Below are positions 44,033 to 57,052 of a stretch of 64,000 bases of DNA, in pieces. Within the stretch, counting starts at the first letter, position 1. Every line of letters begins with the position of its first letter. Source of the DNA: Pseudovibrio japonicus (GTDB lineage: Bacteria; Pseudomonadota; Alphaproteobacteria; Rhizobiales; Stappiaceae). The notes below the pieces were generated by a model, which was not told the DNA's origin, did no database searches, and was given only the letters and a program-made list of their open reading frames with translations. The DNA lies in contig NZ_BMXE01000002.1 in NCBI RefSeq assembly GCF_014651595.1, positions 1 through 64,000 on the forward strand, read 5' to 3'. The position numbers and the translations under genes are program-made.

Positions 44033-45214
44033 GTGAACACACAAGACACATCGGCGCCCCCCATGAAACCGGCCAGCCGCCCAAGAGATCCTCGCCTCGA
44101 TTTTTTTCGAGGCATCGCGATGTTTATCATCTTCATAGCGCACCTGCCGGGCAACCAGTGGACGCTTTGGATTCCTGCACGATTTGGGTTTTCTGATTCC
44201 ACCGAGATCTTTGTGTTCTGTTCTGGAATGGCCTCAGCAATCGCGTTTGGGCGCGTGTTTGAATTGCATGGGCTTGCTATGGGGAGCGCGCGCGTTCTTT
44301 ATCGTGTCTGGCAAGTTTATTGGGCTCATATTGGGCTGTTCCTAGCTGTTGCAGGTTTGCTAGCCTTCGTGAATGACAGTGGTTGGGTAGATTATGATTA
44401 CGTGGGGAGGCTAAACCTGTGGCCTTTCTTCGCGAACCCTTTGTTGCAGTTACCGGGCCTTCTGACGCTCACCTACGTACCAAACCTGTTTGACATTCTA
44501 CCGATGTATCTGGTGATCCTGGCGATGATGCCGCTTATGATGATTGCCTATTACAAGGTTGGGCGAGGTGCTGTTGCAGCCCTTATCCTGACATTCTGGT
44601 TGCTTGCGACGTTTCGACTGGTCGACCTTCCCGCAGAACCCTGGTCTGATCGCCGCTGGTTCTTTAACCCGTTTGCATGGCAACTGTTGTTCTTTACGGG
44701 CTTTGCATTCATCAAAGGCTGGATCCCGGCACCTCCGATCAAGAAACGTTTGATGTTCCTTAGTGCTGCGATCATCATTCTGACCGTTCCATTCGCTTAT
44801 CATGGTATTCTCAACGAAGTGCCGGAATTGCGGGCAATCGCCGACGAGATCCGCTTACTGACCGCGAAAACCGAGATGGGTATTCTGCGTTTCATCCACT
44901 TCCTTGCTCTTGCCTATGTGGCATGGGTGGCTGTAGGTGTCAGTGGCCAACGCCTGCTTGTAGGTGGTATTCGTGGTAAGATCATACGCACCATTAAGAA
45001 GGTCGGCCAGCAATCTCTTGCTGTGTTCCTGGCCAGCATTTTTCTTGGTCAGGCGCTCGCCATTCTCCGCAATGAGCTGGGTTTGAGCGGTACGGTTGCC
45101 GGGGATGCATTGGCGAACCTACTTGGCTTCGCTGGTTTGATTGCGGTTGCCTACCTCGTTGGGTGGTTCAAGAGTGAGCCTTGGAGAAAGCTAAAGCAAG
45201 AGCCTGCTTCCTAG
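44033..45214 (+). CDS. opgC: OpgC-family membrane acyltransferase
   Basis: 393 residues and about ten helices. It matches the OpgC family, which adds succinyl groups to osmoregulated periplasmic glucans at the inner membrane. The N-terminal motif R-D-P-R-L-D-F-F-R-G-I-A-M resembles acyltransferase-3 proteins, and the family's S-D-S-T-E-I-F-V-F-C-S-G and R-W-F-F-N-P-F-A-W-Q-L-L-F are recognisable. The GTG at 44033 opens the frame with AGAGA upstream; ATG 44063 is a fallback. The glucan synthase gene opgH lies convergently beyond a terminator, giving a two-gene glucan module; opgG is absent here. Confidence 0.88.
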   Translation: MNTQDTSAPPMKPASRPRDPRLDFFRGIAMFIIFIAHLPGNQWTLWIPARFGFSDSTEIFVFCSGMASAIAFGRVFELHGLAMGSARVLYRVWQVYWAHIGLFLAVAGLLAFVNDSGWVDYDYVGRLNLWPFFANPLLQLPGLLTLTYVPNLFDILPMYLVILAMMPLMMIAYYKVGRGAVAALILTFWLLATFRLVDLPAEPWSDRRWFFNPFAWQLLFFTGFAFIKGWIPAPPIKKRLMFLSAAIIILTVPFAYHGILNEVPELRAIADEIRLLTAKTEMGILRFIHFLALAYVAWVAVGVSGQRLLVGGIRGKIIRTIKKVGQQSLAVFLASIFLGQALAILRNELGLSGTVAGDALANLLGFAGLIAVAYLVGWFKSEPWRKLKQEPAS

Positions 45215-45329: not shown

Positions 45330-47204
45330 TTACTCGAAATCAGCTAATCGCTTTGCCCTTGCTGTTTCCATAGCCACTCTGCGTTGCGCACTATCGAGAG
45401 TTTCCAGTTCCTGTGGCACATCAATTTCTTCGGGCAATGCCCAGAGCCCGGAATGTTTGAAGTATCTCCCCAGCGTTGGCTTCGATGTGATCATCGCAAA
45501 AGGGATTGCCAGCAATGGTCCGAGAATAACCGGAATAAGAAGCCATGTGCTCGAGAGCGAATATCCTGTCATCCAGAAAGCGCTACAGAGACCAAAGAGC
45601 GTCTGAGGCCAGAATTTTTGAACAGCCACTTGCAAAGGAATACCATGCGGCTGTCTTTCTTGCCCACCCCAGTAGGGCCTTCTACCTGCGAACAATTGCA
45701 CAATAAAAATGGTATGCGCGATCGCCATAATGGGTGCGAGCAAAATGGCATAGATCAACTCAAAGAATGCGCTGAGGGCGACCTTTGAGAACCCGCCGTA
45801 GCTGCGGCGTTCCTTACTGGATGTTAGTATATGAAACTGTGTCACCAGCTTGGGCGCAAAGATCATGGTTATGATCACAATGAACAGGATACTTCCGTAG
45901 AACGGGTCAAACGGTGCCACTCCCGACGCAGAGAGTGAGCCAGTCAAAATGGCCATCACTATAAAGAGGAGCCATGCAGGAGAGCTGGCAAACATAAGAA
46001 TTGCAAGAAACAGCTGAAGACGGCCCAGCCGGTTCACGTTCGGAGCGTCGAGCAATTTGCTGTATTGCAGGTTTCCGTGACACCAGCGTAGGTCTCTGCG
46101 AATAAACTCAATCAGGTGGGGCGGGTTTTCTTCATAACTGCCGTCTTCCACCGGCCAGACACGGACCTCATAGCCGGCACTTGTCATCATGGTTGCTTCA
46201 ACCTGATCGTGGCTGAGAATTGGTCCACTCAGAGCGTCCTTTCCCGGCAAGGGCGACAGCAGGCAGTGTTTGATGAAAGGCTCTATACGAAAGATAGCGT
46301 TGTGGCCCCAGTACGGACCGGCAGGTCCTTGCCACCACGCGGCCCCCAGCGTGAAGGAGCGCATGCCCAGACGCATGCCCCACTGGAAGACACGGGCAAA
46401 GAACGAACTGGTGGAAAGGCCCGGCATTAGGGTCTGCAAGATCCCCAAACGAGGATTTGCATTCATCTTGCTTACAAGATTGCACAGGGCTTCTGCCGAC
46501 AGGAAGCTGTCTGCATCCAATGTGATCGCATAGTCATGGTGATCACCCCAGTTGCGGCAGAAGTCTTCGATATTGCCTGCTTTGAAGCCCACATTGTGCT
46601 CACGCCTGCGGTAGTGCACGTCAATCCGTTTTTCCCAGCGGGCCTTAAGCGCCGTGAAACCCTGCATTTCCTCGTGTATGTGCACAGGCTCGCTGCTGTC
46701 GCTCAAGATGTACAGCGAGAAGCCATTGAGCTTGTCCAGACGGTCCAGTTCCTGAAGCATTGCTTCCAGTTTGGCAGCAACTTGTGGGAAATCTTCATTT
46801 CGGACACATGAGAGCAAAGCTGTTTGCTTGTCCTTGAAGGGGGGGCTGCGGTCGAACGTTTCCAGAGGTGTGCCTGCGTAAACATGACCTACGGGGTCTT
46901 CCGAGAATTTCAACAATAGCAAGCCAATGAACGCATGCCAAAAGCCAATGACAAGCAGCGGCAAGGTGACCAGAAATGCAAGAAACATCACGAGTTTTGA
47001 GATTGTAAAGCCAGTGGTGAACAACGTCAGAAGCATCAAGGTTATGAGCACTGCAAGGGATACGAGAACCAGGGCCCCGAAAAACAGCCTACGCCAGTAT
47101 AAGCGCTGATTTTCCTCATACTTATCAATGATGTTGGTAGAGAGCAGCAGACCAACAAGACTGGTACGAGCATTCTCTTCAGGAACCGGGGTTTGTTCAG
47201 TCAT
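45330..47204 (-). CDS. opgH: Periplasmic glucan glucosyltransferase OpgH
   Basis: 624 residues, the family-2 glucosyltransferase that polymerises glucose from UDP-glucose into osmoregulated periplasmic glucans at the inner membrane. Helices flank the catalytic core: D-S-S (about 170), T-L-D-A-D-S-F-L for the D-x-D, S-H-D-Q-V-E-A as the catalytic base region, and R-R-D-L-R-W-C-H-G-N in place of Q-x-x-R-W. It is shorter than E. coli OpgH (about 850) and lacks most of its long N-terminal segment, as is common in alphaproteobacteria. It is divergent from the dehydrogenase gene at 47319. Confidence 0.93.
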   Translation of the reverse strand: MTEQTPVPEENARTSLVGLLLSTNIIDKYEENQRLYWRRLFFGALVLVSLAVLITLMLLTLFTTGFTISKLVMFLAFLVTLPLLVIGFWHAFIGLLLLKFSEDPVGHVYAGTPLETFDRSPPFKDKQTALLSCVRNEDFPQVAAKLEAMLQELDRLDKLNGFSLYILSDSSEPVHIHEEMQGFTALKARWEKRIDVHYRRREHNVGFKAGNIEDFCRNWGDHHDYAITLDADSFLSAEALCNLVSKMNANPRLGILQTLMPGLSTSSFFARVFQWGMRLGMRSFTLGAAWWQGPAGPYWGHNAIFRIEPFIKHCLLSPLPGKDALSGPILSHDQVEATMMTSAGYEVRVWPVEDGSYEENPPHLIEFIRRDLRWCHGNLQYSKLLDAPNVNRLGRLQLFLAILMFASSPAWLLFIVMAILTGSLSASGVAPFDPFYGSILFIVIITMIFAPKLVTQFHILTSSKERRSYGGFSKVALSAFFELIYAILLAPIMAIAHTIFIVQLFAGRRPYWGGQERQPHGIPLQVAVQKFWPQTLFGLCSAFWMTGYSLSSTWLLIPVILGPLLAIPFAMITSKPTLGRYFKHSGLWALPEEIDVPQELETLDSAQRRVAMETARAKRLADFE

Positions 47205-47318
47205 GTACTACCCAAATTATGATTATTTTTTATGGCACCTACATTTCTGCTAGTTTCCTTTGTTCACGTTTCCTTGGAGTATACTTGTGAAAACTAAGCG
47301 ATCGGGGGAGCGCGTTTT

Positions 47319-48296
47319 TTGTCTGAAATAGCCAGAGCGCTTTGGTACACTGCGCCTCAAACCATTGAAATAAGAGAGGAAAAGCTCTCTAAATCAACTG
47401 GTAACCGTGTTTACTTAAAGACCCACGCTTCAGCGGTTAGCCGAGGCACCGAAGCGATCATCTTTCGTGGTGATGTGCCGGTGAGTGAGCGCGCGCGGAT
47501 GCTGGCTCCATTTCAGGAAGGAACGTTTCCTTTTCCCGTCAAATACGGTTATGCAAATGTTTCTGAAGTGATTGAAACAACAGCAGATTTAGAGGCGGGG
47601 CAGCGGGTATTTTCTCTCTTTCCCCATCAGTGTAGCTTTCTGCTCCCAGCCGATGCGCTCTATCCAATTCCCGCAGATTTGCCCAGTACCCGCGCCACAC
47701 TGGCCGCCAATATGGAGACGGCTCTGAACATCGTTTGGGACGCAGGTGTTTTGCCCTGTGCTCGTATTGCGGTGGTTGGTGCAGGGACCGTTGGCGCGCT
47801 TGTTGGCTACCTATGCGCGCGCACGCCCGGCGTTCAGGTGACGCTTGTTGACGTTAATCCCAAACGGCAGGACATCACGGATGCGCTTTCCTGCGCGTTC
47901 GCACTGCCGGAAGATGCTCCGAGAAATCAGGATGTTGTGGTGCATTGCAGTGCTTCGGAAGCCGGGCTGAACACGGCACTCCGAGTTGCTGGAAAGGAAG
48001 CCAGAATTGTGGAGGCGTCCTGGTTTGGCTCACAAGCCTCCGGTCTTTATCTAGGCGGTGGATTTCACAGCCAGCGACTGAGCCTCGTCTCCTCTCAGGT
48101 TGGTCAGGTTGCCCCAGTTATGAGGCCGCGCTGGACGCATCGCAGGCGGATGGAGGCGGCCATTTCCCTGCTTCAAGACGACGTGCTTGATATCTTGCTT
48201 GCAGCTCCCATCGAGTTTGAAGACGCTCCACAAAGCTTGGGGGATGTTCTTTCAGGCAAGAGGGACACCCTTTGCCAACCCATTGTCTACTCTTAG
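47319..48296 (+). CDS. MDR-type dehydrogenase of the pterin-like cluster
   Basis: 325 residues, a medium-chain dehydrogenase/reductase. The GroES-like half carries S-R-G-T-E-A-I-I-F-R-G-D-V-P where zinc-type enzymes have Cys-Gly-x-Asp, so the catalytic zinc ligands appear missing; BchC-like dehydrogenases share the S-R-G-T-E pattern. The Rossmann motif is V-V-G-A-G-T-V-G (about 152-159). Start is TTG 47319, with GGGGGAG ideally placed 8 bases upstream. It opens a run of four same-strand genes (18 base gap, then an 8-base and a 4-base overlap). The substrate is unknown; a role in forming or oxidising a pterin/sugar intermediate is inferred from context. Confidence 0.75.
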   Translation: MSEIARALWYTAPQTIEIREEKLSKSTGNRVYLKTHASAVSRGTEAIIFRGDVPVSERARMLAPFQEGTFPFPVKYGYANVSEVIETTADLEAGQRVFSLFPHQCSFLLPADALYPIPADLPSTRATLAANMETALNIVWDAGVLPCARIAVVGAGTVGALVGYLCARTPGVQVTLVDVNPKRQDITDALSCAFALPEDAPRNQDVVVHCSASEAGLNTALRVAGKEARIVEASWFGSQASGLYLGGGFHSQRLSLVSSQVGQVAPVMRPRWTHRRRMEAAISLLQDDVLDILLAAPIEFEDAPQSLGDVLSGKRDTLCQPIVYS

Positions 48297-48314
48297 TTTT
48301 GCAAGGATTTTGAG

Positions 48315-48734
48315 ATGTATTCAGTTGAGATCAGCAATCATATTATGGTTGCGCACAGCTTGAAGGGAGAGGTTTTTGGTCCAGCCTCGCAGCTTCACGG
48401 ACTTACTGCACACGTGCACGTCGCTATTTTTGCCGAAGAGCTGGATGAGAACGGAATTGTCATCGACATTGGCAATGCGCTTGAGGTTCTTGGCGAAATC
48501 CTGCAGCCTCTCAATTACAAAAACCTTGATGACCTGCCTCAGTTCAGGGGCCACAACACCACCGTCGATTTTCTTTGCAGCTACATTTACCAGCGCGTGT
48601 GCGATGCGGCTTATCTGCATAAACTTGGCCGCGAGCCGCGCGAACTGAGCAAGGTGCGGGTAACGATTACGGAAAACCCAATTGCGCGGGCTTCTTATGA
48701 GGCACCGCTCACAGCATCCGAGGCTCATGAATAA
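48315..48734 (+). CDS. 6-pyruvoyl-tetrahydropterin-synthase-like protein (divergent)
   Basis: 139 residues with the T-fold of PTPS/QueD enzymes, which convert dihydroneopterin triphosphate to pterins or carboxytetrahydropterin. Landmarks are M-V-A-H (His14), L-H-G-L (His28), I-V-I-D-I, L-N-Y-K-N-L and V-R-V-T-I-T-E-N (Glu120). Several catalytic features differ: the Cys usually four residues before the L-H-G-H His is Ala24, the second His of L-H-G-H is Leu30, the L-D-H is L-N-Y, and the T-x-E reads T-V-D. His33 or His35 might replace the zinc ligand. So a different reaction is likely. Its stop overlaps the next gene by 8 bases. Confidence 0.75.
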   Translation: MYSVEISNHIMVAHSLKGEVFGPASQLHGLTAHVHVAIFAEELDENGIVIDIGNALEVLGEILQPLNYKNLDDLPQFRGHNTTVDFLCSYIYQRVCDAAYLHKLGREPRELSKVRVTITENPIARASYEAPLTASEAHE

Positions 48735-49836
48735 CTTGCATCCTTCAATCGAACAGACCGCAACAACTATGGGAAAGTCCTGCTACTTCATGTTCCCAGG
48801 AGACCTGAACACTCCGACGGGGGGCTACCGATATGACCGTGAGATCATTCGGGGGCTGCAAAAGAACGGGTGGAATATTTCGCTCATTGCGCTTGAAGGA
48901 GACTATCCCGCCCCATCGGAAGCGGACAAACTGTTGGCACTTGAGGCACTTGGCGAGGTCGGAGAGCGGGCGCTGGTCATAGTGGACGGTTTGGCGCTGG
49001 GGGTGTTGCCCGAGTTGGCGAAAGAGATCACTGAGTACTGCAGCCTGATTGCTTTGGTGCATCACCCGCTGTTTCTGGAAAGTGGCATTGATCCAAAACT
49101 CGCAAAAGCCCTGCGAGCCTCTGAGACTGACGCTCTACAACATGCAGAGCATGTGATTGTGACCAGCCCTTCGACACAGAAGGCACTTGTCTCCCAAATG
49201 AAGGTGCCAGCTGACAAGATCAGTGTTGTTTTACCGGGTATTGAGCGTCCGGATGTTTCAGAGGTCGCGCGTTCCTCGCGGAGGCCGGATGCTGCCACTC
49301 GGTTGTTGTGTGTCGGCTCGCTTGTTCCACGCAAGGGGCAGCTGGATCTGGTGGAGGCTTTGGGACAGCTGAAGCACCTTGACTGGCATCTGGATATGAT
49401 TGGCGAGACCCGTTTCGATCTGGAGTATGCTCAGCAGGTGCGAGGGCAGATTGAGCGTCATGATCTTGGGAAGCGTATCCAGGTTCGCGGGGGTATTCCA
49501 AAAGCTGAACTCTCGGATTTCTACCAGTCTGCAGACATTTTTGTGCTGCCGACTTACTACGAAGGCTACGGAATGGCTTTTGCCGAGGCCATGAGTTATG
49601 GCCTTCCGATCATTGCAAGCGGCGATGGTGCGGTGACTTCAACAGTTCCGCCAACGGCGGGTTTTCACGTGAGAGCGGGAGATCCTATTGCTCTTGGCAA
49701 GGCCATTGAAACACTGCTGACCCGTGATGACTTGCGGTCCAAACTGGCCGAGGGTGCCCTTTCCGCAGCGCGGGCCTTGCCGAACTGGAGCGATAGCGCG
49801 AAAGCGTTTTCTTGCACATTGGAGGCGCACCGTTGA
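48727..49836 (+). CDS. Family-4 glycosyltransferase of the pterin-like cluster
   Basis: 369 residues, a GT-B retaining glycosyltransferase (GT4 group). N-terminal G-G-Y-R-Y-D-R-E lines the acceptor side; C-terminal V-G-S-L-V-P-R-K-G-Q and the nucleotide-sugar E-x7-E motif E-G-Y-G-M-A-F-A-E (about 285-293) are intact. Start ATG 48727 lies inside the PTPS-like stop and has CGAGG upstream, so the two are translationally coupled; ATG 48770 is a fallback. Being coupled to a pterin-fold enzyme suggests glycosylation of a pterin- or pyrimidine-type acceptor, as pteridine glycosyltransferases do in cyanobacteria. Sugar and acceptor are unknown. Confidence 0.85.
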   Translation: MNNLHPSIEQTATTMGKSCYFMFPGDLNTPTGGYRYDREIIRGLQKNGWNISLIALEGDYPAPSEADKLLALEALGEVGERALVIVDGLALGVLPELAKEITEYCSLIALVHHPLFLESGIDPKLAKALRASETDALQHAEHVIVTSPSTQKALVSQMKVPADKISVVLPGIERPDVSEVARSSRRPDAATRLLCVGSLVPRKGQLDLVEALGQLKHLDWHLDMIGETRFDLEYAQQVRGQIERHDLGKRIQVRGGIPKAELSDFYQSADIFVLPTYYEGYGMAFAEAMSYGLPIIASGDGAVTSTVPPTAGFHVRAGDPIALGKAIETLLTRDDLRSKLAEGALSAARALPNWSDSAKAFSCTLEAHR

Positions 49837-50654
49837 GTGAATTTTCCTCAGAATGGCTCTTCCTTCGACGCAAAGCTGACCGGCGCGCACGTAATCAGGA
49901 CATCATGAAGATGTTCTGTGACTGGCTGGTGGAGCATGCACCTGAAGACGGGCCACTCCGCCTTATCGATGTTGCTGCGGGGACAGGGTCTTTTCTACAA
50001 GATCTGGCCGAACATATTGGGCCGAACAGAGAGCAGGTTTGGGTGCTGATCGACAATGACCCAGAGCTTTTGCGAGTTGCCAAGGCGGCTCCCCGCCCCT
50101 TCCCTGACACCCGGACCAAGACGGTTGTTTGCGATCTGACCGACACGGGGGCGCTGGATATTCTTGAGGGGCATCACGGGGTGGTTACGTCGGCCTTTCT
50201 CGACCTTGTCAGCGCAAACTGGTTGGACAGTTTTGTTGCTCGCATGCGGCAGCTGCAGCTCCCGTTTCTGGCCGGGTTGTCTTATAACGGCATCTTGTTC
50301 AGCGAGCCTCACCACCCGACAGACCGGCTTATACAACGCGCCTTCAATCAACATCAGGCAAGCGATAAGGGGTTTGGCTCTGCACTGGGACCGCTTGGTG
50401 GATTTCATGCCCACGAGCGCCTACTCAAGGCGGGTTATACCTGCTTCACCGGCCGCTCAGACTGGGTGTGCGCGCCAGAAGACCGTGCTCTGCAGCTGGA
50501 ACTGCTTAATGCATGGGCTGAGGCTGCGCGCGAGGTCGGGGTGCCCGTTGCAATTGTGGATGATTGGCTGGCGTTCCGCTTAGATGCGGTTGATCAGGGG
50601 ACCTCGCAGCTGCAAGTCGGGCATCTGGATATTGTTGGCCTTCCACCTCTTTGA
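49833..50654 (+). CDS. SAM-dependent methyltransferase of the pterin-like cluster
   Basis: 273 residues with a Rossmann methyltransferase core: motif I L-I-D-V-A-A-G-T-G-S-F (about 43-53), I-D-N-D-P-E-L as the acidic loop, V-V-C-D-L, then a second half with F-L-A-G-L-S-Y-N-G and G-P-L-G-G-F-H-A-H that differs from common families. Start TTG 49833 overlaps the glycosyltransferase stop by 4 bases and has GGAGG at ideal spacing, so it is clearly coupled. The acceptor is unknown; context suggests the product of the preceding enzymes. It converges on the NUDIX gene. Confidence 0.8.
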   Translation: MSEFSSEWLFLRRKADRRARNQDIMKMFCDWLVEHAPEDGPLRLIDVAAGTGSFLQDLAEHIGPNREQVWVLIDNDPELLRVAKAAPRPFPDTRTKTVVCDLTDTGALDILEGHHGVVTSAFLDLVSANWLDSFVARMRQLQLPFLAGLSYNGILFSEPHHPTDRLIQRAFNQHQASDKGFGSALGPLGGFHAHERLLKAGYTCFTGRSDWVCAPEDRALQLELLNAWAEAAREVGVPVAIVDDWLAFRLDAVDQGTSQLQVGHLDIVGLPPL

Positions 50655-50687
50655 GGCCATGCCAACCCACTGGTTTGCCGGAGGTCT

Positions 50688-51257
50688 TTACAGACCAACC
50701 TTGTTCAAGATCAGTGCTTGTGTGAGCATAAACAGACGTGGGCAGCGGATTTTTTGCTCGTCGTAAAGCTTGCGAAGATCAGCGAATGAAAGCTCTACAA
50801 CTTCGATATCTTCATCTTCATCCAGATTACGGCCATCGATATTCTGGCCACCAGCGGTGTATTCAGCCAGGAAGAGGTGCGCGCGTTCTGCCAGACGTGC
50901 TGGATTGATGAAAACGTTGGCAACTTTGGAGAGGTTCGTTAGTTCGCAGCCCAACTCTTCCTGCGCTTCGCGCTTGCATGCCTCTTCGATCGACAGATCG
51001 CTGATCTCAATGCCACCTGCACAAGCTTCCAGAATGATTTCTTCCTCGGTGATGTAGGGCGCAACACGGAGCTGTTTGACGAGCAAAACAGTCTTTGCCT
51101 GAGGATCGAACGCCAGCACGGCAATGGAATCGCCGTAAACCCAGACTGGATCTGTGGTGACGTGCGCTCGCCCGTCATCATGAACGACACGCACCTGAAC
51201 CTCTTCGATTTGACCTTTAGCTTCGAGGAGGGTGGTACGTCTGATGAGCTCTGGCAT
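50688..51257 (-). CDS. NUDIX hydrolase
   Basis: 189 residues, resembling ADP-ribose-pyrophosphatase-type NUDIX enzymes that cleave nucleoside diphosphates linked to another group. The Nudix box runs from G-G-I-E-I-S-D-L to R-E-A-Q-E-E-L-G (about residues 86-108); the Glu eight before the Arg is Leu, a small deviation. Start ATG 51257 has AAGGA upstream; the longer frame to 51338 lacks one. With the reductase gene behind it, the enzyme could release a phosphate from a pterin- or nucleotide-type intermediate, or salvage ADP-ribose. It faces the methyltransferase gene convergently. Confidence 0.85.
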   Translation of the reverse strand: MPELIRRTTLLEAKGQIEEVQVRVVHDDGRAHVTTDPVWVYGDSIAVLAFDPQAKTVLLVKQLRVAPYITEEEIILEACAGGIEISDLSIEEACKREAQEELGCELTNLSKVANVFINPARLAERAHLFLAEYTAGGQNIDGRNLDEDEDIEVVELSFADLRKLYDEQKIRCPRLFMLTQALILNKVGL

Positions 51258-51341
51258 GCGTGTGTCCTTATTCGGAAATACACGCAAGTTTATAAAAGCA
51301 CTTTCTATCGAAAGGAATTGCTTTTGCACCTTCTGCAAGGA

Positions 51342-52151
51342 TTAGTTTCTCAGACTTAAGTCCGCGAGCATGTCAACGCCGAGCGGGTGCCAGATGACAT
51401 CAGGGCGGATAGCCTGTGCCAGATAATCAATGGTTGGCAACTGCAGTCCGCGCGGGCCGGATCCGATGATCAGTGGTGCGATCATGAGATGCAGGCGATC
51501 GATCATCTTTAGCTCGATAAAGCGCGACAGGGTCCACGCTCCGCCTTCCACAAGAATGCAGCGAAACTCCCGCAATGCATGGCGAATATCAGCGCAAGAC
51601 AACCTGCCTTTTGCATCCGGCTGCAGCTGAACACATTCGACACCTTCGGGATAGCGTGCATGGGCGTCGTTGCGGGTGATGACAATCCGGCGGGCACTGG
51701 CGTCTTGCAGTAGGGTACTGTCTTTTGGCAGCCGACCATAAGGGTCAATAACGACACGCGCGGGGTGATGTCCGTTCACGTGTCTGACCGTTAGTTGAGG
51801 GTTGTCAGCGACAGCAGTCCCAACCCCAACCACAACTGCATCACACAGAGCCCGAAGTCGATGCAGGTGGATCAGCGCTTCAGAGCAACTTACGTAGTTG
51901 GAGTCTCCGGTTACGGTGGCGATGCGGCCATCAACTGATTGGCCAAGCTGGCCGACGACAAATTGCTTTTCCGCCATGCAAAGAGGTGCGAACACACTGC
52001 CATAGCCCTGAAGATCTGGTGCGCGCCTCTCATGAGAGGCGGTCAAGACTTCCTGCCATTCATCTTTAGACAATATGCCAGAAGGCTGGGTTGATGGCTG
52101 TTCGCAGATTAGCTGAGAGCCCTTCGATTTTTCGTCCAAATGTGCTGGCAT
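51342..52151 (-). CDS. RibD C-terminal-type (pyrimidine) reductase
   Basis: 269 residues. The recognisable part (about 75-265) is the dihydrofolate-reductase-like domain of RibD, which reduces 5-amino-6-ribosylaminouracil phosphate in riboflavin synthesis: Q-L-G-Q-S-V-D-G-R-I-A, D-A-V-V-V-G-V-G-T, D-N-P-Q-L-T-V-R, I-L-V-E-G-G-A-W-T. No deaminase domain is attached, as in stand-alone reductases of secondary pterin and pyrimidine pathways. The N-terminal 70 residues are unusual. Start ATG 52151 has AGGGG seven bases upstream; GTG 52208 is a longer alternative. Its partners suggest it reduces a pterin/pyrimidine intermediate. Confidence 0.8.
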   Translation of the reverse strand: MPAHLDEKSKGSQLICEQPSTQPSGILSKDEWQEVLTASHERRAPDLQGYGSVFAPLCMAEKQFVVGQLGQSVDGRIATVTGDSNYVSCSEALIHLHRLRALCDAVVVGVGTAVADNPQLTVRHVNGHHPARVVIDPYGRLPKDSTLLQDASARRIVITRNDAHARYPEGVECVQLQPDAKGRLSCADIRHALREFRCILVEGGAWTLSRFIELKMIDRLHLMIAPLIIGSGPRGLQLPTIDYLAQAIRPDVIWHPLGVDMLADLSLRN

Positions 52152-52306
52152 TGTATGGCCCCTATCCATCAGCCCCCCTTGTTTTACCGAGTTCACAGCC
52201 CACATCACCTAAGGTAAGTCTAGTGGTAACGAACCTTGATTAATCTGTCGATCAGGAGATTGCAGGGGCTCTTCACGAACCTTCGTAAGCGTCAGGAGAA
52301 ACGAGT

Positions 52307-52864
52307 ATGAGCGAGCAAGTTGCCGGATACTCCGCAATGTCGAAGACCTATCACTGGCTGGTCGTCATTTTGGTTTTCACAACAGTTCCAATCGGCATAA
52401 CCATGGCAACGATCGGGCCTGGAGACCTCCAGAATACATTATACTTTTATCACGAGAGTATCGGTGTTCTGATCTTCGTACTTGTTGTATTACGTCTGAT
52501 CCAGCGCTGGATAACCCCTCCTCCTCCGGTGCCAGCCTCACTTCCAGCAGGGCTACGCATTCTCTCGGCGACAGTTCATTGGGCGCTCTATCTGTTTTTG
52601 ATCGTGAATCCGCTTATCGGCTGGTACGGTGTGTCTCTCTTTGGCGCACAGGTGCCATTTTTTGACTTCTTTAATCTTCCGAGCATTGCCGCACAGGACC
52701 AGACTGCTGCGAACAATGTTCTGCTTTTGCACGCCGCTATCGGCCTCTTCATTACGTTCCTGGTTCTGCTCCACATCTGTGGGGCATTTTATCACTGGCT
52801 CATAAGAAAAGACGGGATTTTTGATCGCATGACAACTGCGCCTTATCAACGCTCTGAAGACTAA
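52307..52864 (+). CDS. Cytochrome b561
   Basis: 185 residues with four membrane helices and the His ligands for two hemes: Y-H-W-L (His16), Y-H-E-S (about 49), V-H-W-A-L-Y (about 90) and L-H-A-A-I-G (about 146), L-H-I-C-G. It belongs to the bacterial b561 group, which passes electrons between quinol and periplasmic acceptors, and in some cases to superoxide. CAGGAG precedes the ATG. It is convergent with the cobalamin gene cobK, 18 bases away, but not functionally linked. Confidence 0.9.
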   Translation: MSEQVAGYSAMSKTYHWLVVILVFTTVPIGITMATIGPGDLQNTLYFYHESIGVLIFVLVVLRLIQRWITPPPPVPASLPAGLRILSATVHWALYLFLIVNPLIGWYGVSLFGAQVPFFDFFNLPSIAAQDQTAANNVLLLHAAIGLFITFLVLLHICGAFYHWLIRKDGIFDRMTTAPYQRSED

Positions 52865-52882: not shown

Positions 52883-53632
52883 TTAGTTTAGGATTGCCTG
52901 CAGTTTTGCGAGGACCGCGTCGATCGAGGCACACTGAATGGAACAAGGGTTTTCCGGGCGCTTAATCATGGCAACCGGAAGACCCAGCTCTCGAGCAGCT
53001 CTGATCTTCCCGTAGGAGGCTGTTCCACCGCTGTTTTTGCTGATCACCCAATCCACATTCTGTTTCTTGAGAAGCTCATATTCTGCACGCCAATCTGCAT
53101 TGGGCAGCCCCTCAATGTATTGTGCGTTAGGCATGGCAACCGCGTCAGTCGGAGCGTTCAAGGTGCGGATGATGAATGTGATGTCAGGTCGTTGCTTGAG
53201 TGGCGCGGCAACCTTCGTGCCCGCTGCAAAGAAGACCTTTGCTTTGGTTGGGATCAGTTCCAAAGCTGCTTCGACGCATTTAACCTGATGCCAGATGTCT
53301 CCTGAAGTCTTCTCCCATGGTGCTCGCTCAAAACCGAGCAATAGAGTTTCGGAACACTCTGTCGCTTCAACCGCATTGCGGGAGATTTGGGCGGCGTATG
53401 GGTGGGTGGCATCAACAACTGCGGCGATGCCTTGAGCTTGAAGATAGTCTGCAAGGCCATTTGGCCCGCCGAAGCCACCAACCCTCGTGTTCTCCCCCAG
53501 ATCGGCAGGGTGCTTCGTCACTCCTGCAAGGGAGGCAATCACCTCGTATTCGCTCATAAGCGCGAGACGCTCAATCAGCTTTCTTGCCTCCCGCGTGCCA
53601 GCCAGCACTAGTATTTTATGGGGGACAGGCAT
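52883..53632 (-). CDS. cobK: Precorrin-6A (cobalt-precorrin-6A) reductase
   Basis: 249 residues, reduces the macrocycle with NADPH during cobalamin ring synthesis. The N-terminal Rossmann part reads I-L-V-L-A-G-T-R-E-A-R-K-L; V-D-A-T-H-P-Y-A and the C-terminal V-I-S-K-N-S-G-G are the family's substrate-binding motifs. It starts inside the cbiD stop (TAATG), so the two are coupled, and ends the pair. Confidence 0.93.
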   Translation of the reverse strand: MPVPHKILVLAGTREARKLIERLALMSEYEVIASLAGVTKHPADLGENTRVGGFGGPNGLADYLQAQGIAAVVDATHPYAAQISRNAVEATECSETLLLGFERAPWEKTSGDIWHQVKCVEAALELIPTKAKVFFAAGTKVAAPLKQRPDITFIIRTLNAPTDAVAMPNAQYIEGLPNADWRAEYELLKKQNVDWVISKNSGGTASYGKIRAARELGLPVAMIKRPENPCSIQCASIDAVLAKLQAILN

Positions 53633-54750
53633 TACCGCGGCTCCAGCTCGGCAGGTTCGTCAGCGGGAACATGAGCGAGTATCTGCCCCTGGCGGTCTGT
53701 CACCATGATCTCCACGCTCACCGGAGCACCGCGGAGGATTTTTAAGGCGGCGCGTTTTGCACCTTGTGCGATGAGCTCTCCTATATGAAGATTTTCAGCG
53801 GCTGCCCGCTGCGCAACGTAGGAGACCAGAGAGGCTTCTCTTGTTTCCTGCTGCAGCTCAGCTGATGCGCCAGCTTGCTGCAGCACGTCTGCGAGGGCAG
53901 CAAAGTCGACAGATGAGCGAGCTGAATGAAGATCCATGGCTCCTTGTGCAAGCTTTGTCAGCTTGGCAATGCCGCCGGAGATCGTCAGTTTGGGAACCGG
54001 ATGGGCGCGCAGGTATTTAAGCAAACCTCCGGCAAAATCTCCCATGTCGATGTAGGCTTGCTCTGTCAAATCGGGATAGTAAGCGCGCAGTACATCTTCC
54101 GAGGTTGCGCCAGTCGCGGCTGCAACGTGGGTCAGCCCTGTAGCGCGTGCCACATCAACGCCGCGATGGATCGAAGCAATCCATGCAGCGCAGGAGAACG
54201 GGCGTACGATACCGGTTGTTCCGAGGACGGAGAGGCCGCCAACGATACCGAGGCGGGGGTTCATTGTTTTTTGTGCAAGCTCTTCGCCGTTTTCAATGGA
54301 AATTTCAACATCCAAAGCCAGAGATACGCCGTGGGCATCGGCAAGCTTTTGTAGTTCAGCTACCATCATCTTTCGGGGGACTGGGTTGATGGCTGGCTCA
54401 CCAACGGGGATCGGTAGGCCCGGTTTGGTGACCGTGCCGACTCCGGAACCGGCAAGAAACCGAATCCCTTCGACCGAAGGATTTGATGTTACCTTTGCCT
54501 GAATGCGCGCACCGTGCGTTACATCGGGATCGTCGCCTGCATCTTTGATGATTACTGCAGTTGCTGCACTTTCCTCCAGATTTTCGAAGACAAGCGCGAA
54601 GGATGGCGCCTCACCGCGCGGGAGGGTGATGCTCACCGGATCAAGGAATTCGCCGGACAACAAAGCGGCATACGCTGCCTTTGCGGCGGCGGTGGCACAG
54701 GCTCCAGTCGTCCATCCTGTTCTTAGTTTTTTCTGCCCAGTTTCAGCCAT
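53632..54750 (-). CDS. cbiD: Cobalt-precorrin-5B C1-methyltransferase CbiD
   Basis: 372 residues. CbiD methylates C1 of cobalt-precorrin-5B in the early-cobalt (anaerobic-type) corrin pathway; the aerobic route uses CobF. The N-terminal motif L-R-T-G-W-T-T-G-A-C-A-T-A-A and later G-S-G-V-G-T-V-T-K-P-G-L and G-G-L-S-V-L-G-T-T-G-I-V are typical. It diverges from cobA; only 107 bases separate them and hold both promoters. Its TAA overlaps the cobK start. Confidence 0.95.
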   Translation of the reverse strand: MAETGQKKLRTGWTTGACATAAAKAAYAALLSGEFLDPVSITLPRGEAPSFALVFENLEESAATAVIIKDAGDDPDVTHGARIQAKVTSNPSVEGIRFLAGSGVGTVTKPGLPIPVGEPAINPVPRKMMVAELQKLADAHGVSLALDVEISIENGEELAQKTMNPRLGIVGGLSVLGTTGIVRPFSCAAWIASIHRGVDVARATGLTHVAAATGATSEDVLRAYYPDLTEQAYIDMGDFAGGLLKYLRAHPVPKLTISGGIAKLTKLAQGAMDLHSARSSVDFAALADVLQQAGASAELQQETREASLVSYVAQRAAAENLHIGELIAQGAKRAALKILRGAPVSVEIMVTDRQGQILAHVPADEPAELEPR

Positions 54751-54857
54751 CCGGGGACTATACAGATTTAGCGGGAGATACCAAGTAGAACACTTTGGAC
54801 TTCCGATAGGATTCCCATTAAATTGCCTCGCAAAATCACGTAACCCACGAGAACCAT

Positions 54858-55694
54858 TTGTTTGATCTCTCCCTCCCCGATTTCGATCTTCCGACGCTAG
54901 AAGCTGGCTGGGTCTGGCTGGCTGGCGCAGGTCCCGGTGATCCCGGCCTCCTGAGCCTGAATGCCTTGAACGGCCTCCGTCAAGCAGATGTCATTGTTTA
55001 TGACGCGCTGGTGGATGAACGCATTTTGAAGTTTGCCAGAGATGATGCGGAAATCATCTACGCTGGCAAACGTGGCGGCAAGCCTTCTCCCAAGCAGTCA
55101 AGTATCTCCATCAAGCTGGTGGAGCTTGCCAAATCCGGCAAGCGCGTGCTGCGCCTTAAAGGAGGAGACCCGTTTGTTTTCGGGCGTGGGGGTGAGGAAG
55201 CTCTGTCGTTGGTAGATGCTGGTGTACCGTTCCGCATTATTCCCGGTATCACAGCGGGCGTTGGTGGATTGGCTTATGCGGGCATTCCTTCAACGCACCG
55301 CGGGATTAATCAAGCGGTTACGTTCCTGACAGGTCATGACCAGAATGGGGTTGCGCCGGACCAGCTTGACTGGGATGCTCTTGCTAAAGGCTCCCCTGTG
55401 ATCGTGATGTATATGGCTATGAAGCATATCTCGCTGATCACACAGAAGCTGATGAATGGTGGTCGCAGCGGATCAGAACCTGTCGCTGTGATCTGTAATG
55501 CAACGCAGCAGAACCAGCATGTTTTAGAAACAACGCTTGGCTCCTGCGCTCAGGATATAGCCACGAGTGGTCTCAAGCCGCCTGCCATTGTTGTAGTTGG
55601 CCATGTTGTAAGCCTGCGGGAGCAGTTGAACTGGATTGAGCCAGCTCTTGCGCGCACATCGCAAGGCACTAAACTGGAAGAGGGATCTGACTAA
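54858..55694 (+). CDS. cobA: Uroporphyrinogen-III C-methyltransferase
   Basis: 278 residues. It methylates uroporphyrinogen III at C2 and C7 to precorrin-2, the first committed step to cobalamin and siroheme. V-W-L-A-G-A-G-P-G-D-P-G-L-L-S-L and L-R-L-K-G-G-D-P-F-V-F-G-R-G-G-E-E are the SAM motifs. The frame starts at TTG 54858, with CGAGA upstream; a non-AUG start is therefore likely but not certain. It is coupled to cobB by a TAATG junction. Confidence 0.94.
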   Translation: MFDLSLPDFDLPTLEAGWVWLAGAGPGDPGLLSLNALNGLRQADVIVYDALVDERILKFARDDAEIIYAGKRGGKPSPKQSSISIKLVELAKSGKRVLRLKGGDPFVFGRGGEEALSLVDAGVPFRIIPGITAGVGGLAYAGIPSTHRGINQAVTFLTGHDQNGVAPDQLDWDALAKGSPVIVMYMAMKHISLITQKLMNGGRSGSEPVAVICNATQQNQHVLETTLGSCAQDIATSGLKPPAIVVVGHVVSLREQLNWIEPALARTSQGTKLEEGSD

Positions 55695-57052
55695 TGACCG
55701 TTGCGAAGGGGTTCGTAATTGCAGCACCATCTTCAGGATCGGGAAAAACCACGATCACCTTGGCGCTGCTGCGCGCTCTTCGCAATAGCGGACTTCGGAT
55801 TGCCTCTGGCAAGTCGGGGCCTGATTACATTGATCCTGCCTTCCATAGTGCTGCCTCCGGGCATCCATGCCTCAATTATGATGCCTGGGCGATGTCACTG
55901 ACTCAGCTTTCACTCAATGCAACGGAGCAGGAAAAACACACGGACGTTGTGATCATTGAAGGCGCGATGGGCCTGTTTGATGGCGCGGCAGATGGGTCTG
56001 GTTCTGTTGCTGAGCTGGCGGTTCATCTGGGCTTACCTGTTATTCTGGTGGTGGATTGCAAGTCTCAGGCGCAATCGGTCGCGGCGCTTGTGCATGGCTT
56101 TCTGACCTTTCATCCGCATTGCCATATCACCGGTGTCATCCTCAATCGCGTTGGGTCTGCGCGTCATGAGCGCATATTGCGGCTCGCGCTGGAGCCGCTT
56201 GGCGTGATTGTTCTGGGGGCATTTTACCGTTCAAAACAACTGGAGTTGCCAGAGCGCCATCTTGGGCTTGTTCAAGCCAGCGAACGGGCCGATCTGGAAG
56301 AATTCTTGAATGCTGCCGGAGACGTCGCGCGCGATAGTGTCGATATTCCCGCGCTAATGCGGCTTGCTAAGGTGCTTGCAATTCCTGCCCGAGAAAACAA
56401 AGAGCTGACGGGCGTTGCGCACTTGCCTCCTCTTGGACAACATATTGCAATTGCTAAGGATATCGCCTTTGCGTTTTGCTATGAGCACCTTTTGAGTGAC
56501 TGGCGACGGCAAGGCGTGACGCTTTCGTTCTTCTCTCCGCTCGGTGATGAGACCCCTTCTCCCGAGGCTGATGCGATCTTCCTGAGTGGTGGGTATCCGG
56601 AACTACATGCCGGGCAACTCTCTCAGGCTGACACTTTCAAGCGCGGGATCCGAGAGGCAGCGGGTGCAGGTAAGCTGATTTACGGTGAGTGCGGCGGCTA
56701 TATGATGCTGGGAGACGGGCTGACTGACAAGGGCGGACAGTCCCACGAGATGCTTGGTCTGCTGCCGATTGAAACCAGTTTTGCAAAGCGAAAGTTGAAA
56801 CTTGGCTACCGGAAACTGAAGGCAACCGAGGATGCAAAACAGTCAGGCTTCCCATGGCTTAACCCTCTGGGAGCCCATGAGTTCCATTATTCGACCCTGA
56901 CTGTGAAATCAGAGGCGTCGTCACTGTTTGAGGCGCAGGATGCCGAGCATCACAAACTAGATCCTCTTGGCCACATCAATGGTCGTGTGATGGGATCATT
57001 TGCGCATGTGGTGGCAGAAAGAAGCGAAGAATGGTGGTCCGCTTCTTCCTGA
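55694..57052 (+). CDS. cobB: Cobyrinic acid a,c-diamide synthase
   Basis: 452 residues, amidates the a and c side chains using glutamine and ATP. The N-terminal P-loop domain reads A-P-S-S-G-S-G-K-T-T, with G-P-D-Y-I-D-P near 43; the C-terminal glutaminase has its catalytic Cys in Y-G-E-C-G-G-Y-M-M-L. Both halves are intact. Whether it acts on cobalt-containing or cobalt-free substrate depends on the route; the neighbours (CbiX, CbiD) favour cobyrinic acid, the CbiA role. It converges on cobM. Confidence 0.94.
   Translation: MTVAKGFVIAAPSSGSGKTTITLALLRALRNSGLRIASGKSGPDYIDPAFHSAASGHPCLNYDAWAMSLTQLSLNATEQEKHTDVVIIEGAMGLFDGAADGSGSVAELAVHLGLPVILVVDCKSQAQSVAALVHGFLTFHPHCHITGVILNRVGSARHERILRLALEPLGVIVLGAFYRSKQLELPERHLGLVQASERADLEEFLNAAGDVARDSVDIPALMRLAKVLAIPARENKELTGVAHLPPLGQHIAIAKDIAFAFCYEHLLSDWRRQGVTLSFFSPLGDETPSPEADAIFLSGGYPELHAGQLSQADTFKRGIREAAGAGKLIYGECGGYMMLGDGLTDKGGQSHEMLGLLPIETSFAKRKLKLGYRKLKATEDAKQSGFPWLNPLGAHEFHYSTLTVKSEASSLFEAQDAEHHKLDPLGHINGRVMGSFAHVVAERSEEWWSASS

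Follow-up and report, generated by a model that had tools for sequence, protein, structure and literature searches.

The window analyzed here, a stretch of 64,000 nucleotides from Pseudovibrio japonicus (contig NZ_BMXE01000002.1, positions 1 to 64,000), contains four core genes for a zinc-less MDR dehydrogenase, a PTPS-like T-fold protein, a GT4 glycosyltransferase, and a class I S-adenosylmethionine (SAM) methyltransferase, followed by a gene for a stand-alone RibD-type reductase. The grouping of these genes is far above chance, and the four-gene core, the reductase, and their partners almost certainly form one functional unit. They travel together in many distantly related bacteria and are likely a factory for a pterin-like molecule that bears a sugar and a methyl group. 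The pathway that we favor as a whole, a dedicated and patchily distributed biosynthesis of a glycoconjugate derived from guanosine triphosphate (GTP), stands at about an even chance. An earlier note, made from the window's sequence alone, had already proposed the core, a NUDIX hydrolase, and the reductase as one set. The core and the reductase do behave as such a set, and the NUDIX gene, found in only 1/67 loci outside Pseudovibrio, does not belong to it.

The core genes lie on the forward strand. The MDR gene (47319..48296, TTG start) is followed after an 18-base gap by the PTPS-like gene (48315..48734), which overlaps the GT4 gene (48727..49836, ATG at 48727) at 48727-48734; the GT4 gene in turn overlaps the methyltransferase gene (49833..50654, TTG start) at 49833-49836. 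The reductase gene is encoded on the reverse strand (51342..52208, GTG start) and contains an in-frame ATG at 52151, where the earlier note had placed its end. All six frames of that note were found in place, its gap and overlaps were exact on re-reading, and both TTG starts are preceded by the purine-rich, ribosome-site-like stretches it had pointed out. Relatives, too, have a start codon at this place in the methyltransferase gene: TTG in P. axinellae (L008), ATG in L006, and GTG in L007. Between the window and P. axinellae, the nonsynonymous divergence of the four core genes ranged from 0.07 to 0.27 and that of the reductase gene was 0.17, with synonymous divergence of at least 1.5 or saturated, which indicates purifying selection on all five genes.

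To follow these genes in other genomes, 75 loci were read: the window, seven named Pseudovibrio loci (whose PTPS-like proteins are 88-93% identical), 59 stretches from further genomes, and eight annotated plasmid stretches. The Pseudovibrio loci thus number 8 and the non-Pseudovibrio loci 67. Every other order-level carrier (38) was read, as was every additional carrier from the phylum level (21). The plasmid stretches were chosen by hand from 23 plasmid records with a PTPS-like match and come from Streptomyces (two), Microbacterium, Thiodictyon, Palleronia, Methylosinus, Agrobacterium, and Neorhizobium. In all stretch-based counts, absence means absence within the ~8-20 kb that were read. The order MDR, PTPS-like, GT4, methyltransferase was intact in 60/67 non-Pseudovibrio loci, and the MDR gene was present in 66/67. 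The seven exceptions to this order include two loci cut by a contig end (L111 and L114) and one with a rearranged GT4 gene (L063). The GT4 gene was not found within the stretch of L089. In L076 and L077 it had moved and the homologous methyltransferase gene was not found; by reading, L076 has another methyltransferase-like frame beside its GT4 gene. The seventh, L065, has the PTPS-like gene on its own.

Several further genes recur at these loci. The reductase gene lay within 4 kb of the PTPS-like gene in 44/67 loci, always 0.6-3.9 kb downstream. A gene for an OpgH-type membrane glycosyltransferase of the clade described below was present in 36/67 loci, always 2.7-3.3 kb upstream of the PTPS-like gene and on the opposite strand in 35 of these 36. 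GTP cyclohydrolase II was encoded near the core in 27/67 loci, cytochrome b561 in 23, an FkbM-type methyltransferase also in 23, and a creatininase in nine. A cytidine diphosphate (CDP)-alcohol phosphatidyltransferase was encoded in 20/67 loci, and a flippase-like protein in 16, always with the CDP-alcohol transferase. The neighbor test set beforehand in the earlier note asked whether the core and the reductase half are rarely adjacent in other genomes. They are not, so this refutation of the set fails: besides being close in the 44 loci, the two also co-occur when unlinked, since the reductase gene lies apart from the core in the same genome in, for example, G106, G070, G065, G142, G100, and G163. 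In five stretches (L120-L124) the reductase gene shares a contig with the core but lies at a distance from it; cytochrome b561 adjoins it in four of these and GTP cyclohydrolase II accompanies it in four.

The same association was observed across whole genomes, in overlapping samples of 150 order-level and 398 phylum-level genomes. The PTPS-like gene was found in 39/150 order-level genomes. The methyltransferase family was present in 40/150, and 38 of these 40 also carried the PTPS-like gene (Fisher p 5e-32); the exceptions were G010 and the 56%-complete G123, and the reverse case was G083, which is cut by a contig end. This family is therefore nearly confined to cluster carriers. The OpgH clade described below was present in 34/150 genomes, 32 of them with the PTPS-like gene (p 2e-23; score gap from 406 to 321 bits). 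The reductase was present in 32/150, with G123 as the sole carrier without the PTPS-like gene (31/32, p 1e-23; gap from 121 to 76 bits). In the phylum-level set, all 24 reductase carriers were among the 27 PTPS-like carriers (gap from 164 to 96 bits), with at most six reductase candidates scored per genome. The OpgH-clade and reductase carriers were set by score gaps seen after the search. The Fisher values are not corrected for relatedness, and a within-genus contrast can be set beside them: in genus g38, G034 and G142 carry the PTPS-like, methyltransferase, and reductase genes, and no match to any of them was found in G076 or G111. A decayed cluster was observed in G111 (L117, 7852-10510), where an OpgH-clade gene (580-residue match) lies beside short MDR and reductase pieces.

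Pfam and NCBIfam bore out the families given in the earlier note for the PTPS-like protein (Pfam PTPS, 73.5 bits), the GT4 enzyme, the NUDIX hydrolase, and the reductase (RibD_C only, deaminase domain absent). The methyltransferase remained below the Pfam cut-offs (best 25.0 versus 27 bits), and the MDR protein gave only a weak Pfam match (3HCDH_N, 23.1 versus a cut-off of 22); its best NCBIfam relative is the distant BchC (42 versus 291 bits). The description of this MDR protein as zinc-less was sound. Unlike in the Zn-dependent alcohol dehydrogenases of the MDR class, the zinc-binding Cys residues are not kept: among 74 family members no Cys was at least 90% conserved, and the best Cys was found in 45/74. 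In the GT4 enzyme, the Glu-x7-Glu motif (E282, E290) is conserved in 71 members. Searches of the PDB with the MDR protein and the methyltransferase gave weak matches only (5vm2 and 3giw), and a structure predicted for the methyltransferase, with five close sequences as input, reached a mean predicted local distance difference test (pLDDT) score of 53.8.

The PTPS-like protein has a single PDB relative at E ≤0.001, the entry 3d7j 'Uncharacterized protein SCO6650' (E 1.3e-31 over residues 1-131). Its residues were compared with E. coli QueD in 74 family members, including eight from Pseudovibrio; L114, cut by a contig end, was dropped from the 75 loci. The numbered QueD residues, namely the catalytic Cys, the zinc His, and the Glu that anchors the pterin, are taken here in the roles that we assume for them. 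Cys27 is replaced with Ala in 74/74 members. Two zinc His are kept in 74/74, and the third (His33) is replaced with Ala or Leu in 74/74, so that the motif at the place of HGH reads HGA in 66/74 and HGL in 8/74, the latter being Pseudovibrio. The Asp-His pair is mostly replaced, most commonly by Asn (49) and Tyr (61). In contrast to these losses, the pterin-anchoring Glu (Glu110-equivalent) is kept in 74/74. The NCBIfam scores are far below the cut-offs (QueD, 38 versus 89 bits; 6PTHBS, 28.5 versus 125.5 bits). Canonical PTPS/QueD activity was therefore rejected for this family; the part of the earlier note's reading that drew on PTPS action on dihydroneopterin triphosphate is not supported. 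The genes of relatives are currently annotated one by one, as '6-carboxytetrahydropterin synthase', 'zinc-binding alcohol dehydrogenase', and 'RibD family protein', and this automatic functional annotation is very likely wrong for at least the T-fold protein. Within COG0720, the available part of PMC5041015 describes the subfamilies PTPS-I (QueD), PTPS-II (biopterin), and PTPS-III (folate), with the motifs CxxxHGH, CxxxxxHGH, and ExxHGH, and PTPS-V of unclear function. The cluster protein belongs to the same fold family but has none of these three motifs in its 74 members; it may correspond to PTPS-V.

The second residue change concerns the reductase. Among the 52 cluster reductases compared, eight of them from Pseudovibrio, the catalytic Glu is kept in 52/52. 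The specificity site, occupied by Lys in E. coli RibD and in the genome's own RibD, is Gln in 51/52 and His in 1/52. According to the accessible part of PMC3631187, Lys at this site (Lys151/152) favors the deaminated substrate, fungi have Thr and archaea Asn, and the T35K mutation in yeast Rib7 shifts the preference towards the deaminated substrate. The best PDB matches of the cluster reductase are 2azn (M. jannaschii), which PMC3631187 also names, and 6p8c, labelled as a 2,5-diamino-substrate reductase. The cluster reductase thus shares family and catalytic Glu with RibD/RibG and Rib7 of the riboflavin branch. It differs from riboflavin RibD, of which a full-length copy is present elsewhere in the window's genome, in lacking the deaminase domain and the Lys and in scoring below the curated NCBIfam cut-offs.

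The only GTP cyclohydrolase II domain of the window's genome is part of a 445-aa frame on another contig. This agrees with the suggestion in the earlier note that the precursor comes from steps encoded elsewhere. In the relatives with a cluster GTP cyclohydrolase II, Cys54, Cys65, and Cys67 (E. coli RibA numbering), which we take to be the zinc ligands, are each kept in 27/27 enzymes. Tyr105, whose role is likewise assumed from E. coli RibA, is kept in 25/27, with Met in one (Streptomyces L060, by reading) and Leu in one.

The OpgH-type gene of the window (45330..47204, reverse strand; GT2 family, NCBIfam MdoH models) is divergent from the core operon. The 114 bases between them (47205..47318), read directly in the sequence, are a probable shared promoter region. 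A quick tree, supported by the Shimodaira-Hasegawa-like approximate likelihood ratio test (SH-aLRT) only, placed 38 cluster OpgH rows and two from the cluster-less g38 relatives in one clade (SH-aLRT 100, branch 1.03), with all 22 ordinary OpgH rows outside. Six near-identical Pseudovibrio rows had been dropped from this tree, in which one row is flagged as long and three as unusual in composition. Within the stretches, OpgH-clade matches were called at 330 bits, a limit of our choice, and these 36 matches are identical with the cluster rows of the tree that come from outside Pseudovibrio. Gammaproteobacterial OpgH genes some kb from the core (L087 and L094) were considered as clade members and rejected, as they fell outside the clade. 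The DxDS-type motif is present in 43/44 cluster OpgH proteins (8 from Pseudovibrio) and in 22/22 ordinary ones. The cluster OpgH is thus of the same family as the osmoregulated periplasmic glucan (OPG) synthase OpgH and shares its motif, but forms a separate long-branch clade without an adjoining OpgG: no OpgG-like match was found beside it in the window stretch at E 1e-8, and a separate OpgG-OpgH pair lies on another contig of the genome (L128, G000:C11).

The OpgH clade and the CDP-alcohol transferase, found in 36 and 20 loci separately, occurred in the same stretch in 0/67. It looks like they are two alternative finishes of one product. Next to the reductase gene, at the downstream end of the cluster, the window encodes a cytochrome b561 (52307..52864, forward strand; PF01292), a frequent but non-exclusive partner. 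Its six His are invariant in 31 members, and the 18 best cytochrome b561 matches are all in PTPS-positive genomes. The OpgH-clade gene and the cytochrome b561 gene were both absent from the earlier note, whose interpretation was right in spirit but incomplete in its envelope partners and mistaken in the NUDIX role and the canonical PTPS action. In three genomes without a PTPS-like match (G021:C2, G103:C286, and G134:C234), a cytochrome b561 relative adjoins an ordinary OpgH gene, hinting at an OpgH-b561 link that is independent of the pathway.

The linkage of the genes, the clade structure, and the residue changes were read directly, and from these we infer every reaction and the product of the following pathway. 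It would begin with GTP cyclohydrolase II (for Pseudovibrio, the one copy encoded away from the cluster), which would open GTP to 2,5-diamino-6-ribosylamino-pyrimidinone phosphate. At this point the route would leave the riboflavin pathway, and the stand-alone reductase would reduce the ribosyl chain without prior deamination. Without deamination, a 2-amino-4-oxo pyrimidine, the half-ring of pterins, would be kept. The T-fold protein may hold this ring through its conserved Glu and join in a step other than PTPS/QueD chemistry. The zinc-less MDR enzyme would oxidize or reduce a side chain, the GT4 enzyme would attach a sugar, and the methyltransferase would methylate the compound. Finally, the OpgH-clade enzyme or the CDP-alcohol module would attach the product to an envelope glycan or phospholipid, or export it within one. 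Judged part by part, a non-deaminated pyrimidine- or pterin-type nucleus is moderately probable. Glycosylation and methylation of the product, plausible as the earlier note had proposed them, are favored to the same degree, and the chance that the product is an envelope conjugate falls somewhat short of even.

The pathway connects genes that had been annotated singly into one route, for which there is a choice of two envelope modules. It points to a branch point that can be tested, at which the reductase is expected to take the non-deaminated riboflavin intermediate, and it places the SCO6650-type protein, uncharacterized in its PDB entry, in a defined gene set, which shows where to seek the product. 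A more specific and improbable version is that the product is a pterin-type redox cofactor anchored in the envelope by its coupling to a glycan of the membrane or to a phospholipid, with cytochrome b561 as its redox partner. Such a cofactor would be a methylated, glycosylated 2-amino-pyrimidine or pteridine made from the non-deaminated riboflavin intermediate. If real, it would represent a novel class of envelope cofactor or of electron carrier in the membrane, common to Proteobacteria and Actinobacteria.

A search of titles and abstracts, which covered few subscription journals, gave no description of the cluster among the matches listed. SCO6650 of S. coelicolor (3d7j) is homologous to the cluster PTPS-like protein. 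Its crystal structure reportedly showed no zinc and no catalytic triad, and the protein is said to have no PTPS activity. SCO6655 has reportedly been examined as a GTP cyclohydrolase II whose product is altered. A protein of S. fungicidicus, close to SCO6650 by eye, lies in a cluster with the four-gene core and with a CDP-alcohol transferase, a flippase-like gene, a creatininase, and GTP cyclohydrolase II. In the window, by comparison, the OpgH clade replaces the CDP-alcohol transferase and flippase of this type of cluster, the reductase and cytochrome b561 are present in addition, and the cluster lacks GTP cyclohydrolase II. The nearest described logic, with different partners, is the huimycin pathway of Kutzneria albida. 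According to PMC7439116, its cluster encodes GTP cyclohydrolase I, an enzyme to which QueD activity is ascribed, and the synthases for 7-carboxy- and 7-cyano-7-deazaguanine; a GTP-derived ring passes through a QueD-type step and is then methylated and glycosylated. Compared by that description, both clusters combine a COG0720-type enzyme, a SAM methyltransferase, and a glycosyltransferase; the cluster studied here differs in that its T-fold protein lacks the QueD residues and its partners are the RibD-type reductase, the MDR enzyme, the OpgH clade, and often GTP cyclohydrolase II. Pteridine glycosyltransferases are known in Chlorobium and cyanobacteria, the Chlorobium enzyme acting on tetrahydrobiopterin, according to the accessible part of PMC5683033. 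Glycosylation of a pterin by the GT4 enzyme would be the same kind of step.

Several observations weigh against the favored pathway. The reductase fell below threshold in 8/39 order-level and 3/27 phylum-level carriers (the latter G513, G523, and G225), some of them at contig ends, as in G225, where the contig ends near the gene; the S. fungicidicus locus likewise has no reductase within its stretch. These missing reductases, and the lack of a nearby GTP cyclohydrolase II in 40/67 loci, mean that the order of steps may differ or that housekeeping enzymes may be used. Bacterial RibD structures rank close behind 2azn and 6p8c in the PDB list, and the bacterial NCBIfam models TIGR00227 (121 bits, cut-off 150) and TIGR00326 (104, cut-off 156) score above the archaeal one (99.8), all below cut-off. 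Since fungi have Thr and archaea Asn at the site that is Gln here, the substrate of the reductase could differ from that proposed. The Pseudovibrio PTPS-like proteins deviate at the family-conserved positions Leu30, Ala32, His33, Val84, Asp85, and Pro122. A Streptomyces plasmid (L065, Streptomyces sp. NBC_00019) carries the PTPS-like gene alone, with no searched-for partner within 9 kb. On the envelope side, neither the OpgH clade nor the CDP-alcohol transferase was found in 11/67 stretches, and the split between the two partly follows lineage. Cytochrome b561 was rejected as an exclusive marker, with matches in 95/150 genomes and no clean score gap.

The 11 loci with neither envelope enzyme are what would be expected if the product were a soluble, exported glycoside of the pterin or deazapurine type, serving light protection, signalling, or antagonism, with the OpgH clade and the CDP-alcohol module not involved. 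Such a product is rather doubtful, although homologues on 23 plasmid records are typical of accessory metabolite genes. Bacterial pterin glycosides are known (PMC13259868, PMC5683033, as far as available), and in huimycin a methyltransferase and a glycosyltransferase complete a heterocycle that derives from GTP (PMC7439116). For the cyanobacterial pterin glycosides, the accessible text of PMC13259868 contained no match for PTPS, gene cluster, or glycosyltransferase. On the other side, the OpgH clade is set apart from ordinary OpgH, the PTPS-like gene accompanies it in 32 of 34 genomes, and it never shares a stretch with the CDP-alcohol module. This specificity and the 0/67 overlap suggest that the envelope partners are more than incidental.

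If the envelope partners are taken at face value, the PTPS-like and RibD-type proteins might instead have been recruited to a non-pterin substrate in the modification of an envelope glycan or lipid, for example to convert a nucleotide-linked pentose into a pentitol head group. A role in the envelope is common for the GT4, GT2, CDP-alcohol transferase, LPG_synthase_TM, and FkbM families assigned here. The FkbM-type gene is present in the 23 loci noted above, and the loss of the canonical PTPS residues fits a different substrate. That RibD-type reductases reduce the ribosyl chain (PMC3631187, in its accessible part) would also suit this route. We nevertheless consider it unlikely. GTP cyclohydrolase II, with its zinc Cys intact, is encoded near the core in 27/67 loci and accompanies the reductase in four of the five split stretches, and the pterin-anchoring Glu is invariant; this linkage and this Glu point to a GTP-derived ring, as in the pathway that we favor. 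A classical biopterin-type pathway, in which dihydroneopterin triphosphate would be converted to pyruvoyl-tetrahydropterin and then reduced and glycosylated, would match the Pfam PTPS assignment and the automatic annotation as 6-carboxytetrahydropterin synthase, but is very improbable given the loss of Cys and of the third zinc His in 74/74 members, the mostly replaced Asp/His pair, and the NCBIfam scores far under the cut-offs for QueD and 6PTHBS. That two unrelated gene groups are adjacent in Pseudovibrio by chance has next to no likelihood; for the core, the reductase, and the OpgH clade, synteny and the co-occurrence in genomes of different classes and phyla refute it, even though some neighbors of the core are mostly local.

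These local neighbors include the NUDIX gene (50688..51338, reverse strand), which encodes a hydrolase of the ADP-ribose pyrophosphatase type (TIGR00052, 90.7 bits versus a cut-off of 79.55). It was present in 8/8 Pseudovibrio loci and is a probable passenger; given its rarity in the other loci, the dephosphorylation step that the earlier note had assigned to it was rejected. The OpgC-type gene upstream (44033..45214, forward strand; Pfam OpgC_C) was found in 7/8 Pseudovibrio loci and 3/67 others and is a local companion, probably not part of the core. Past the cluster, at 52883-57052, lie cobalamin-type genes that, by reading of the frames, are CbiJ-like, CbiD-like, CobA-like, and CobB-like. 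CbiJ was found in 1/67 and CbiD in 0/67 non-Pseudovibrio stretches, and the OpgC and cobalamin-type genes were rejected as parts of the pathway by their rarity outside Pseudovibrio. The window gave no Rfam match at the gathering threshold, including the cobalamin riboswitch, and no tRNA. In 11/67 loci (L049, L050, L054, L056, L057, L078, L082, L105, L108, L109, and L110), a family of ~340 aa with a signal-peptide-like start, as judged by eye, is encoded beyond the OpgH and FkbM-type methyltransferase genes, at about -5.0 to -4.5 kb from the PTPS-like gene.

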